The notes beneath the pieces were generated by a model, which saw nothing but the letters and a program-made list of their open reading frames with translations, did not search any database and was not told the origin of the DNA. This document shows, piece after piece, positions 49,258-54,740 of a stretch of DNA of 64,000 nt. This DNA is from Chitinophaga alhagiae (GTDB lineage Bacteria > Bacteroidota > Bacteroidia > Chitinophagales > Chitinophagaceae). The position numbers and the translations under genes were made by a program. Within the stretch, counting starts at the first letter, position 1. Each line of letters opens with the position of its first letter. The stretch is taken from positions 1,674,001-1,738,000 of the forward strand of contig NZ_QXMH01000001.1 of assembly GCF_003568665.1 (NCBI RefSeq), in the 5' to 3' direction.

Positions 49258-49449
49258 ATGGGTTACAAGCCAAAAGCCCCTAAAGGGGAAATCAGTATTG
49301 ATAATCACAGGGGGAAAATCAGGTTAAGGTGGCGGCATGAGGGGGTCAGATACCCGTTAAGCCTTCCTTATACCTACTCTCCTGAAAATATGCATCATGC
49401 TACTATTAAAATAGCGGAAATGTGTCATATTGTTAGAGATTGGGTTTGA
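49258..49449 (+). pseudogene. Tyrosine-recombinase integrase, N-terminal arm-binding fragment
   Basis: 63 codons from ATG 49258. APKGEISIDNHRGKIRLRWR then YPLSLPYTYSPENMHHATIK matches the arm-type DNA-binding N-terminus of phage/island integrases (typically xGSVxIexFRGRLRLRWR...YSLSLGLxDTPENR). The core-binding and catalytic domains are gone: the frame stops at 49447, exactly where an IS256-type remnant runs in from the other side. It lies 150 bp after the tRNA and points away from it, as integrases of tRNA-inserted elements usually do. Confidence 0.75.
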
Positions 49450-49687
49450 GTCTGTCTCCAAAGATAATAGATAGCTGTGCAAGAGTCTGATTCCAGTTGT
49501 GGACTGGTTTGTTCCACTTGGCATAGATATTCTCCTGAACAAGGAATAAGAGTTTCATCAGGGCGCCTTTCGATTGGGTTACAGCCCTTAGCTGCCGATG
49601 GAATCCCTCGATGATATTTGTGGTATACATGATCCTGCGAACATCCTTGTATGACGAAATGAATCGTATTACATGATTATCATTTAC
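49433..49687 (-). pseudogene. IS256-family transposase, C-terminal fragment
   Basis: On the minus strand FISSYKDVRRIMYTTNIIEG followed by FHRQLRAVTQSKGALMKLLF and QTLAQLSIIFGDRL is the C-terminal catalytic end of mutator-type (IS256) transposases; the Glu of NIIEGF is the last residue of the DDE triad. The rest of the protein is absent; in frame upstream there is a TAA at 49690-49688. The last 17 bp overlap the end of the integrase fragment. Between 49688 and 50004 there is only a 27-codon frame (49771-49688), not recognised. Confidence 0.8.
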
Positions 49688-50004: not shown

Positions 50005-50511
50005 ATGAAATCAAAAATGACCGCTATCGCCGGCATGCTGGTAGCTTTTTCAATGACCGCTTTTGCCCAATCCTCCGCCGACGCTACTGCCACGGCCACT
50101 ATTATCACGCCCATCAGCATCAGCAAAACCGTTGACCTGAATTTTGGCAATGTTGCCGTAGGCGCAAGCACCGGCACTGTAGTATTAACGCCGGCCGGCG
50201 GACGTTCGGCAACCGGGGGTGTAAGCCTTCCCACAACGGGTGGTACCGTTACCGCAGCATCTTTTGATGTAACAGGTGAAGGCACCTATACCTATTCCAT
50301 CACCCTGCCCTCTTCCGTGACCATTACGCGGAACACCGGCTCGGAAACCATGACGGTAAATACTTTTACCAGCACACCGTCTACAACAGGCGCACTCACC
50401 GCAGGCGCTCAAACACTTACCGTTGGAGCTACGCTGAACGTAGGGGCAGACCAGGTACCGGGCACATATGTTTCCGGCACCACCTTTACCGTAACAGTTA
50501 ACTACAACTAA
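50005..50511 (+). CDS. DUF4402 secreted protein, putative fibre subunit 1
   Basis: 168 aa from ATG 50005 (the frame opens at 49846, but the signal peptide starts here: MKSKMTAIAGMLVAFSMTAF-AQ). The mature chain is Thr/Ser/Val/Ala-rich and all beta. ATATATIITPISISKTVDLN followed by FGNVAVGASTGTVVLTPAGG, the TITRNTGSETMTV strand and the C-terminal PGTYVSGTTFTVTVNYN are the DUF4402 pattern. DUF4402 proteins look like pilin-type subunits in chaperone-usher systems. First gene of the 50.0-54.7 kb surface locus. Confidence 0.85.
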   Translation: MKSKMTAIAGMLVAFSMTAFAQSSADATATATIITPISISKTVDLNFGNVAVGASTGTVVLTPAGGRSATGGVSLPTTGGTVTAASFDVTGEGTYTYSITLPSSVTITRNTGSETMTVNTFTSTPSTTGALTAGAQTLTVGATLNVGADQVPGTYVSGTTFTVTVNYN

Positions 50512-50633
50512 AAGAAGCGGCTGACTGGAAAAGGATACCCTGCATCACGCAGGCAGTGAAGGCATGGCTGTTGTACGCGGCCTCCGGCACTGCTTTTCTA
50601 GTCAGCCTCTTTTTTGCAATCCCTCTACCTGTC

Positions 50634-51512
50634 ATGCAACAACTTCATTTTCCGCGGCGGGGCCTGTTACTATTGGCCATTACAGGCGCCCTGCTGCTTT
50701 CTGCTCTTCCCTTCCGGCAAACAATGGCCCAGGGCAACCTGATGATAATGCCCCGGAGGGTGGTTTTTGAGAACAGTAAAAGACTGCACGAGCTGAACCT
50801 CATCAATACCGGGCAAGACACTGCGCGGTACGCTATTTCACTGAAGCACTACCGTATGAAAGACGATGGTTCTTTTGAAGAAATAGACACCGCCGCTCAC
50901 GATGCCAGTTTTGCCGACAAATACTTACGCTTCTTCCCGAGAAATGTTGTGCTGGGCCCCGGTGAGGCCCAGTCTGTCCGCATCCAGCTGACCCAGACCG
51001 GTAGGTTGCTCCCGGGAGAATACAGGTCTCATCTATATTTCCGGGCTGTGCCAAATGAAGCCCCGCTCGGCCAGGAACCCGCCGGGCAATAAGCTGCCGG
51101 CGTAGCGGTGAAGCTGGTACCTATATTCGGCATTTCCATACCGGTTATTATCCGCGTGGGTACACGTGATACGGAAGTAAGCCTTTCCGCCGCTTCCCTG
51201 GAAATGACAGACCCCGCCACACCGCTCCTGAACCTGTCACTTCACCGAAAAGGCAACATGTCTGTCTACGGCAACATCACCGTAGAGCATGTTTCACCAA
51301 CAGGCGCCGTTACAAAAGTGGGCACCGTACAGGGGCTGGCGGTATATACGCCTAATTCCGTACGACATGTAAAAATTCCGCTTGCCAACGCTGCCGGGGT
51401 GAATTACAACCGCGGCAGGCTGCGTATCGCATACAAGGAACCACCGGAAACAGGCGCCGCTTCTATTGCGCAAACACAGTTGCCGCTGACCGGCAACGCA
51501 CTTCAAAACTAG
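50634..51512 (+). pseudogene. PapD-like periplasmic chaperone interrupted by one in-frame TAA
   Basis: From ATG 50634 a signal peptide (LLLLAITGALLLSALPFRQT) leads to the N-terminal chaperone domain (NLMIMPRRVVFENSKRLHEL, FFPRNVVLGPGEAQSVRIQL, PGEYRSHLYFRAVPNEAPLG). TAA at 51090-51092 stops it. In the same frame, without any shift, reading continues AAGVAVKLVPIFGISIPVII, the G1 strand, and a second Ig-like domain to TAG 51510-51512. The stop falls in the loop before G1. Joined, the halves give ~291 residues, a normal chaperone length. A GTG at 51108 could restart the second half but would lack a signal peptide. Explanations: nonsense mutation, sequencing error, or readthrough. Confidence 0.82.
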
Positions 51513-52013
51513 ATGATGGGCATAACCTGGTTAAAACAAAAGCAGTTGCCGGCAATGATCTGTACGGTGACCTGCTTTCTCTTCAGCACGGCCGCCGCCG
51601 CGCAAATAACGGCCGTCAGCACGGCGCAGCAGCTGAGCTTCGGCGCGTTTTCCCAAGGCAATTCCGGGGGAACGGTAACGGTTAACGCCAGCGGTACCCG
51701 GTCTTCTACCGGCGATGTGATACTGGTCAACATGGGTGTTTCCTATTTCCCTGCCATATTTGAAGTGGAGGCGGCGCAGGGCACTATTATCAATATCGTC
51801 AACGGCCCGGACGTTCCGCTGAACGGCAGCAATGGCGGCAGCATGCAGCTGCACATCGGGAACGCGGACCAGACCCTGCCGTTCGTAACTACCGCAACAC
51901 CGCCGGCACGCACTTCTGTCAAGATCGGCGCCACGCTTACCGTGGGCGCACGCGCCGCCAACCCGCCGGGCAATTACAGCGGCACTTTCTCAGTAACCTT
52001 TATTCAGGAATAA
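51513..52013 (+). CDS. DUF4402 secreted protein, putative fibre subunit 2
   Basis: 166 aa. ATG 51513 directly follows the chaperone stop (a second ATG at 51516 is possible). The signal peptide ends FLFSTAAAAQ. The mature part reads ITAVSTAQQLSFGAFSQGNS, GTVTVNASGTRSSTGDVILV, and a terminal strand NPPGNYSGTFSVTFIQE, again the DUF4402 fold. It differs clearly from the first copy, so it may be a tip or anchor subunit rather than a duplicate. Six bp separate it from the usher gene. Confidence 0.83.
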   Translation: MMGITWLKQKQLPAMICTVTCFLFSTAAAAQITAVSTAQQLSFGAFSQGNSGGTVTVNASGTRSSTGDVILVNMGVSYFPAIFEVEAAQGTIINIVNGPDVPLNGSNGGSMQLHIGNADQTLPFVTTATPPARTSVKIGATLTVGARAANPPGNYSGTFSVTFIQE

Positions 52014-52019
52014 TCACAG

Positions 52020-54659
52020 ATGACTGGCAAACACAGGCAGCACTCAGCCCTATATTCAATGCTTCGCACTTATTGTAAGACGGCTGCCGGCCTGCTGCTG
52101 GCTTTGCTGCTGCCCATTGCAGGCATGGCGGAAGACGAGCCGGCGTATGACGCCATCACCATCCAGCTGACCGTGAAGCAGGTTGGCAATATGGATGTGA
52201 TGGCCGTTATAACCGGGCAGGAGCTTTACCTCCCCGTGTCTGATGTTTTTAACTTCCTGAAGATCAAAAACACCCTGTCTGCGGACATGAACACCGTCAG
52301 CGGTTTTTGGGTAACGCCTGAAGCCCCGTTCGTTATTGACAAAAGCCGCCACCGCATCAGCTACCGCCAGCAGGTGTTTGACCTGCCGCCCGGCGATATG
52401 ATGGTGGTAGAAAACAGCCTCTATCTGAAATCCCATCTCTTCGGTAAAATATTCGGCCTGCCTTGCTCCTTCAGCTTCAGGAACCTCTCCGCAGTTATGG
52501 ACGCCACGCCAGACCTGCCGGTAATACGGGAAATGAAGCAGGAAATGATGCGCCGCAACCTGCGGCAGCTCAGGCAGGAGCCCGAGGCGGACACAACCAT
52601 CACCCGCAACGACCCTTTCTTCCGCTTCGGCATGGCAGACTGGGAAGCCGTAGTAACACGCCCGGGAGAAGGCCCGGTGGGCACCCGGCTCAATTTGTCT
52701 CTCGGGGCCACCCTGGCAGGCGGTGAAGCCACCGTAGCGCTCAATTACCAGAACAATACACCCTTTTCTTCGGCAAGACAATATTTTTCCTGGCGCTATG
52801 TCAATAACGACAACTCGCTTGTACGCCAGGTAAGGGCCGGGCATATAGCCCCGCAGGCCGTTTCCACCATCCTAGACCCTGTTGTGGGCATACAGGTCAC
52901 CAATACGCCCACGCTGTACAGGCGCTCCTTCGGTACCTACACGGTAAGCCAGTTTACCGAGCCGGACTGGATAGTGGAGCTGTATGTGAACAATGTGATC
53001 GTTGATTACACCCGCGCGGACGCTACCGGCTTCTTCACGTTCGACATTCCGCTGATGTACGGCAACTCCCTTATCCAGCTCCGGTTTTACGGGCCTTGGG
53101 GAGAAGAGCGCTCCAGCGTGCAGAACATCGTGATCCCCTTCAACCTTGTTCCTCAGCGGGAACTGGAATACACCGTGAGCGCCGGCGTGCTGACAGATAC
53201 GCTCAACAGCCTGTTTGCCAGGGCCAACTTCAACTATGGCCTTGGCCGGCAGATAACCGTGGGGGGCGGCATGGAATATCTTTCTTCTGTTTTCTCCGAC
53301 AAAGGCATGCCTTTCCTGAATACCACGTTCAAGCCTTTTAACAATATGCTGGTATCCGCGGAATACATGCATGACGTGAGGTCAAAAGCAGTGGCCAGCT
53401 ACCGCCTGCCGTCAGACCTGCAGGCAGAGCTGAATTACACCAGGTACGCCAAAGGCCAGCGGGCCATCAACAACCGCGCGCTGGAAGAAAGGAAGGCCAT
53501 TGTGTCCATGCCATTACGAACGCAGCGCTACGTGGTATTTTCCCGGCTAACGTTCAGTGAGATCATTGCCCCTCGTGTGCTTTATCCCACAGCAACCAAG
53601 TACCGCAACATTCCGAAAACAAAATACACCTCTTCAGACCTGATGCTGTCCGCCTCCTTCCGCCGCTTCAGTACCAATTTTACTACTACCGGTTTGTTCA
53701 TTGCGGAAAACGATCCCTACATGTACAGCCTTCTTTCCCTGGCTTACCGGCTGCCAGCCAGGTTTACGTTCAAGCCGCAGGCCCAGTACCAGTACAACGA
53801 TGGCCGCTTCATTACCATGCGGCTGGAAATGGAAAAGCAACTGGCGGGAAGGGGCTTCATAAACATTGCCTATGAAAAGAACTTTTATACACAAAGCAAT
53901 AATGTGATGCTGGGCGTGTCTTTCGACCTGTCTTTTATGAGAGCGGCGTTTGCAGCGGCCAGGAGCAACAATACCACCACCCTGATGCAGTCTGCCGGCG
54001 GCAGCCTCATCTACGACAACAAAAGCAGCCATGTAACCCTGCGCAACCGCCCGGCGGTAGGCACCGGCGCCATATCCATCCTCCCGTATCTCGATCTGAA
54101 TGGCAATAACCGCCGCGACCGGGGCGAGCCCAGGGTAACCGGCTTGAAGCCGCGCATCAACGGCGGCCGGTTAATGAAAGAGGCCCGGGATACCGTTACC
54201 CGCGTGTTTGACCTGGAGGCCTACAGGAACTACTACCTTGAGCTGGATGACAGCGGCCTGGAGAACATTGCCTGGCAGTTAAAAAAGAAAACCATGAACG
54301 TGGCCGTTGCCCCCAACCAGGTGAAGTTGGTAGAGGTGCCAATTGCGGTAAAGGGCGAAGCATCCGGCATGGTATACCTGCTGAAGAACGGGAAGCAGGC
54401 AGGCCTTGGGCGCATCATTGTCTCCTTCTATGACAGCAACGGCATGCTTGCAGGAAAAACAGTTACCGAACCAGACGGCTTTTTCAGCTACCTGGGGCTG
54501 GCCCCCGGCGCGTATACGGCCCGTATTGACGATCAGCAGCTGGAAAAACTGCGGATGGTGTCTGCTACAGGGGAGGCGCCCTTTACCATAGCAGCAAGTA
54601 CACAGGGCGCCGTGGCGGATGGGCTGGTGTTCAGGCTGAAGCAGGAAGTGGAAAAGTGA
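52020..54659 (+). CDS. Outer-membrane usher-like protein of a chaperone-usher system
   Basis: 879 aa (an ATG at 52062 may be the true start, opening the signal peptide). The N-terminal domain of about 25-150 is beta-rich (LTVKQVGNMDVMAVITGQEL). A long barrel follows with many aromatic-ended strands. A plug-like insert around residues 308-378 reads WIVELYVNNVIVDYTRADAT then GNSLIQLRFYGPWGEERSSV, as in FimD/alternate ushers. The C-terminus has a signature LPYLDLNGNNRRDRGEPRV and a carboxypeptidase-regulatory-like Ig domain (about 780-836, TVTEPDGFFSYLGLAPGAYT). It should translocate and anchor the DUF4402 subunits delivered by the chaperone. Confidence 0.82.
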   Translation: MTGKHRQHSALYSMLRTYCKTAAGLLLALLLPIAGMAEDEPAYDAITIQLTVKQVGNMDVMAVITGQELYLPVSDVFNFLKIKNTLSADMNTVSGFWVTPEAPFVIDKSRHRISYRQQVFDLPPGDMMVVENSLYLKSHLFGKIFGLPCSFSFRNLSAVMDATPDLPVIREMKQEMMRRNLRQLRQEPEADTTITRNDPFFRFGMADWEAVVTRPGEGPVGTRLNLSLGATLAGGEATVALNYQNNTPFSSARQYFSWRYVNNDNSLVRQVRAGHIAPQAVSTILDPVVGIQVTNTPTLYRRSFGTYTVSQFTEPDWIVELYVNNVIVDYTRADATGFFTFDIPLMYGNSLIQLRFYGPWGEERSSVQNIVIPFNLVPQRELEYTVSAGVLTDTLNSLFARANFNYGLGRQITVGGGMEYLSSVFSDKGMPFLNTTFKPFNNMLVSAEYMHDVRSKAVASYRLPSDLQAELNYTRYAKGQRAINNRALEERKAIVSMPLRTQRYVVFSRLTFSEIIAPRVLYPTATKYRNIPKTKYTSSDLMLSASFRRFSTNFTTTGLFIAENDPYMYSLLSLAYRLPARFTFKPQAQYQYNDGRFITMRLEMEKQLAGRGFINIAYEKNFYTQSNNVMLGVSFDLSFMRAAFAAARSNNTTTLMQSAGGSLIYDNKSSHVTLRNRPAVGTGAISILPYLDLNGNNRRDRGEPRVTGLKPRINGGRLMKEARDTVTRVFDLEAYRNYYLELDDSGLENIAWQLKKKTMNVAVAPNQVKLVEVPIAVKGEASGMVYLLKNGKQAGLGRIIVSFYDSNGMLAGKTVTEPDGFFSYLGLAPGAYTARIDDQQLEKLRMVSATGEAPFTIAASTQGAVADGLVFRLKQEVEK

Positions 54660-54740
54660 TCCCGGGGGGCTTCAATTTTCAGCGCCCCTATGATTTCCCC
54701 CAAACTTCCCGTAAATTCATCCCGACCTAAAAAAACCCTC

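Follow-up and report, generated by a model that had tools for sequence, protein, structure and literature searches.

A probable chaperone-usher pilus operon from a divergent branch of the Bacteroidota, interrupted by a stop codon in Chitinophaga alhagiae

A stretch of 64,000 nucleotides of Chitinophaga alhagiae DNA (hereafter the window) carries on its plus strand, at positions 50005-54659, a chaperone-usher gene cluster in which a subunit gene (D1), the frame of a PapD-like chaperone, a second subunit gene (D2) and an usher gene follow each other in that order. This locus probably represents an operon for a chaperone-usher pilus from a divergent branch of the Bacteroidota. It would work by the ordinary donor-strand mechanism and is broken here in its chaperone frame. 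The conserved gene order, the N-terminal extension of D1 and the shortness of D2 are observed, and the folds of the usher and of D1 are those of predicted models. D1 (50005-50511, 168 aa) and D2 (51513-52013, 166 aa) each have a signal peptide and belong to the DUF4402 family (PF14352, Pfam cut-off 25.2 bits), with 111.6 bits (E = 5.5e-32) and 76.7 bits (E = 3.4e-21), respectively. The coordinates, the gene order and the family of both subunits that had been given in a preliminary description of the locus were thereby confirmed. The four consecutive genes that it reported were not confirmed as such, for the chaperone is split by an in-frame TAA at 51090-51092.

The identity of the usher (52020-54659, 879 aa) is based on its predicted fold and not on sequence families. 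An AlphaFold2 (AF2) model was built with 24 aligned relatives (pLDDT 81.5, pTM 0.59). FimD and PapC, the ushers of type 1 and P pili, occupied ranks 1-17 in a Foldseek search with this model (best E = 4.9e-27) and ranks 1-15 in VIA (Z 17.4-20.7), which is silent on families absent from its lists. The best VIA match was the PapC pore (Z 20.7, 4.3 Å over 385 residues), and the first unrelated barrel followed at Z 14.6 with 7.4 Å over 255 residues. The range matched by FimD and PapC, about residues 185-875, takes in the plug and the C-terminal domains, in keeping with the usher with plug and C-terminal domains of the preliminary description, as far as a model can tell. Although the overall fold of the model is that of these ushers, the identity in the structural alignments was about 10-13%, and of the 25 aligned usher sequences only one matched the Pfam Usher family (PF00577; E = 0.018). 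The C-terminal domain gave weak SdrD_B/CarboxypepD_reg-like matches. Searches of the PDB by sequence (usher and D1) and by profile (usher, D1, D2 and chaperone) matched no pilus protein; the usher profile matched only SdrD B and NOMO2 there, through the C-terminal domain.

D1 is a pilin-like immunoglobulin (Ig)-type fold with a free N-terminus in its AF2 model (pLDDT 87.4), which contains no strand before residue 38, the signal helix excepted. The top Foldseek rows were Caf1 and CfaB, with CsuA/B also among the best, and chaperone-usher subunits made up 48 of the 50 listed VIA rows (best Z 7.3, 3.5 Å over 105 residues, within the range below 8 in which VIA warns that a match may reflect only a common arrangement). 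Most of these rows align from residue 33-37 of D1 onward. This leaves residues 23-36 or thereabouts (codons 23-36 at 50071-50112), a free stretch after the signal peptide in which Ala, Thr and Ile alternate, as the likely donor strand, and D1 as the likely shaft pilin. Caf1, CfaB and CsuA/B resemble D1 in fold and in having an N-terminal extension, whereas D1 is a DUF4402 protein by sequence and found no solved relative by sequence or profile. The absence of a FimA-type pilin, seen as an anomaly in the preliminary description, loses its force, as D1 itself has that kind of fold in the model.

D2 is related to D1 at the profile level (probability 99.0), but it lacks the N-terminal extension. 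By a crude count, from the first AQ, GQ or SQ to the FG motif, 24 residues separate AQ from FG in D1 versus 11 in D2, which starts just before FG. In the relatives described below the same count was 23-29 for D1 (22 of 22 rows) and 10-23 for D2 (20 of 21 parsed), with the D2 of locus L032 unparsed and the D1 of L046 and the D2 of L039 overcounted by the rule. The longer D2 N-termini are proline-rich and by eye not strand-like. Hence the donor strand appears to be carried by D1 only, and D2 may accept a strand without donating one, which would place it at the tip. The expectation that the DUF4402 N-termini supply the donor strand thus appears to be borne out for D1 and is not supported for D2. 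This assembly rule had been presented as new; in the chaperone-usher pathway, however, donation of an N-terminal strand is the usual mode of assembly. In an intact operon the chaperone would keep D1 and D2 in the periplasm and the usher would thread the subunits outward. D2 would be exported first, as an acceptor but not a donor of a strand, and D1 would follow and polymerise, using its N-terminal extension for donor-strand exchange. By analogy with the relatives and with known pili, such assembly, a tip position of D2 and an adhesive function may be proposed.

Relatives of the operon were sought in a set of 294 family genomes that includes the genome of the window. Usher matches were present in 24 of them, and 23 genomes carried 25 near-full-length ushers with 38-59% identity; the match in the remaining genome (G087) was a C-terminal stretch of 99 residues and was rejected as an usher. 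A scan of genome contigs confirmed no relative. When one locus that is a whole short contig (L027) was left out, 24 usher loci, window included, could be assessed. All 24 had a chaperone gene, and D2 and D1 were each present in 23: D2 is missing in L036, and no D1 was seen in the examined stretch of L041, where the chaperone lies downstream on the opposite strand. The usual order is D1, chaperone, optionally a large protein X that is described below, D2 and usher, with L034, L041, L045 and L047 among the exceptions. A second chaperone follows the usher in L043 and L049. L049 (379-2039) and L095 (5646-9208) each hold three or four copies of D1, which looks like duplication of the shaft subunit. 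The gene set recurs in relatives, and therefore the operon is not a product of chance; the search for the same gene order across the family that the preliminary description proposed thus had a positive outcome.

The chaperone frame extends from about 50556 to 51512, and the likelier start within it would be the ATG at 50634. The single TAA divides it into open reading frames of 178 and 134 aa; apart from this codon no further damage was seen in it, and the frames of D1, D2 and the usher are all open. When the frame was aligned with 19 related chaperones, of which one is partial, both halves were homologous to them and continued each other, and the stop lay in a linker between two conserved blocks, which we take to be the F1-G1 loop. 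In relatives, the PapD_N family matched 13 of the 21 aligned chaperone rows, with E values up to 1 (best 8.8e-6). Together with the usher fold, for which FimD and PapC came first, and the recurrent gene set, this upholds the original assignment as a chaperone-usher locus. In two relatives of the same genus (G177 and G006) the chaperone frame is uninterrupted and spans about 300 codons, counted from stop to stop. Searches of the window's own genome returned one usher, two DUF4402 proteins above the cut-off and a single chaperone, which contains one TAA (E = 6.8e-122); they found no second chaperone as a stand-in. A working two-piece chaperone seems unlikely, because the sequence of the downstream half includes no separate signal peptide. 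As the sole chaperone gene found contains a nonsense codon, the fibre should not be made by the genome as sequenced. The system is probably dead there unless the stop is a sequence error.

Such an error in sequencing or assembly, with an operon that is intact and working in the organism, is a real possibility, though we consider it distinctly less probable than the alternative of a broken operon. A single base position is affected in an otherwise open and conserved chaperone frame, and the three other genes are all open. Against this, the assembly has large contigs and is 99.99% complete, and the chaperone of another family member (G050; L048 12790-13655, minus strand) is frameshifted as well, although this too may be an error; the window and L048 are the two broken chaperones among the 24 loci. 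G+C content by codon position was uninformative on the chaperone. The locus is thus either a recently broken operon or one with a base error in its assembly, and a real nonsense mutation and a sequence error are indistinguishable here.

Several findings weigh against the interpretation as a chaperone-usher pilus operon. Neither the usher nor the two chaperone halves of the window matched a relevant Pfam or NCBIfam family, PF00577 and PapD_N included. The usher's N-terminal, chaperone-binding domain is barely covered by the fold matches: residues 44-165 form strands and helices in the model, and the listed VIA matches span 195-872. The Foldseek E values of D1 are weak (best 2.3e-3, none at or below 0.001), although the rows agree with one another, its best Z value lies below 8 as mentioned above, the placement of D2 at the tip is based on sequence length alone, and both D2 and the chaperone are known from sequence only. 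The missing Usher match and the absence of a solved usher among sequence and profile matches could mean that an unrelated outer-membrane barrel stands beside unrelated Ig-like secreted proteins. We regard this as very improbable, since the fold match to FimD and PapC is well above that to other barrels, and a PapD-like chaperone and pilin-like subunits constantly accompany the usher. A product in the form of a thin capsule-like polyadhesin rather than a stiff pilus is less remote, but still rather unlikely. Caf1, which forms a capsule-like fibre, heads the Foldseek rows of D1, and the window has one likely shaft subunit; however, that list also contains the pilus proteins CfaB and CsuA/B, and the matches offer no distinction between the two kinds of fibre.

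The E. coli common pilus (EcpA-C) and the type 1 chaperone FimC represent the same kinds of genes as those of the window. However, comparisons by hhalign with single E. coli sequences gave no significant relation, and Ecp differs in that two chaperones and a distinct adhesin gene are annotated. These comparisons were also uninformative on the subclass (classical, alternative or archaic), and the fold lists mix all three. The signal peptides of D1 and D2 end in AQ and have no cysteine there. They therefore lack the defining feature of the type V (lipoprotein) pili of Bacteroidota, a lipoprotein signal whose cleavage site carries a cysteine.

In relatives, a large protein (X) with a tail resembling those of the type IX secretion system (T9SS) can stand directly before D2 on the same strand. 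It was assessed in 22 loci, leaving out L027 and L034, which lie at contig ends, and L036, which has no D2. X was present in 14 of them and is absent from the window. Its spacing to D2, measured in 13 loci with mechanically assigned starts, ranged from an overlap of 8 nt to a gap of 12 nt. The tail scored above the 23-bit cut-off of TIGR04183, the C-terminal domain of type A T9SS substrates, in nine of the 14 proteins and between 18.9 and 22.7 bits in four; the one without a match was similar to other X proteins by BLAST. A BLAST comparison of their last 430 residues divides the X proteins into two unrelated classes of 11 and three members (more than 300 bits within, at most 50 between classes). 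The larger class pairs with D2 proteins that start PPRP-like, the smaller with those that start PTDSLP-like. A repetitive tail-fibre-like protein of 876-1155 aa lies between chaperone and X in L031 (1953-5420), L043 (12839-15826) and L049 (3006-5636).

X was found in 14 of the 17 loci with an extended D2 versus none of the five with a short, extensionless D2 (window, L028, L029, L035 and L051), a difference with a Fisher p of 0.0021 that is uncorrected for descent. Counter to such a link, L044, L045 and L046 have an extended D2 without X. A tree of the D2 bodies rejected the grouping of the window and L028 with L030, L031 and L042 (approximately unbiased test, p = 0.019), and the usher tree, with the ushers of L027, L036, L038 and L044 left out, did not reject the converse grouping (p = 0.175). 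The trees are thus in no clear conflict, and judging from them descent could be a sufficient explanation for the pairing of D2 type and X. Counts of T9SS tails in 20 genomes ranged from 15 to at least 150, and 27 were above the cut-off in the genome of the window. The tails are common in the genomes of relatives, and mere adjacency therefore carries less weight there than in that of the window. A search of the window's genome with one X protein, made with no positive control, gave no match. One may speculate, at quite low odds, that the chaperone-usher fibre and the T9SS build one surface structure, in which a giant T9SS-exported adhesin, encoded between chaperone and D2, docks on a donor-less tip D2 whose N-terminal type is matched to the class of adhesin. 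The window's operon would then be a minimal form, from which the adhesin was lost or was missing from the start.

Across the phylum, 95 of 395 genomes contained a match to the usher profile at E = 1e-5, a count that takes in partial and single-domain matches; many of those at the weak end involve a single C-terminal domain only. Twenty of these loci were inspected, 13 from the strongest matches and seven weaker or from other families. They mostly contained at least one subunit-like protein, a chaperone and an usher that were matched by the same profiles. Loci of other classes have the same kinds of subunit, chaperone and usher as the window, but often several subunits and the chaperone directly before the usher. 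In three of the 20 loci (L076, L080 and L082, the only ones tested for the tail) a large protein before the subunits carries a TIGR04183 tail of 38-48 bits. The operons of L076 (1-11976) and L082 (7620-19174), from another class, each combine chaperone and usher with four subunit-like proteins and a protein of about 1750-1870 aa that has a T9SS tail. The usher-like protein encoded in L072 (3599-6997; 1132 aa) carries SPOR domains at its C-terminus (PF05036, 74.2 bits).

Just upstream of D1 lies what resembles the remnant of a transposase C-terminus (49436-49687, minus strand; PF00872 Transposase_mut, 16.5 bits, E = 0.0041, below the cut-off), and the downstream neighbour at 54690 is a sugar transporter (PF00083). 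The pattern that we take to be a Bacteroidota-type promoter occurred once in the whole window, at a distant position (2243-2271), versus 1.25 matches expected. Near the operon, sigma-70-like sites were no more frequent than expected (2 versus 3.2), and 12 terminator-like sites were observed versus 6.3 expected.

In passages of two papers, archaic systems or usher porins are listed for Proteobacteria, Cyanobacteria and Deinococcus-Thermus, and in one of them also for Spirochaetes, without Bacteroidetes (PMC4654587; PMC4827864). A further survey left chaperone-usher systems out (PMC4793230). Among the matches listed in a literature search to which subscription papers were external, there was no paper on a chaperone-usher system in Bacteroidetes, Chlorobi or Chitinophagaceae or together with type IX secretion, and no mention of DUF4402 was found. 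This divergent Bacteroidota branch of chaperone-usher operons is therefore apparently undescribed, in a bacterial group that is not usually credited with such fibres. An usher family that is missed by the standard profile and occurs in more than one class of the phylum would extend the chaperone-usher pathway, and the assignment would give DUF4402 a likely function. Such a family would also make it possible to test for cooperation of two unrelated export machines on a single appendage. The T9SS link in relatives, which is not shown by the window itself, is possibly important.

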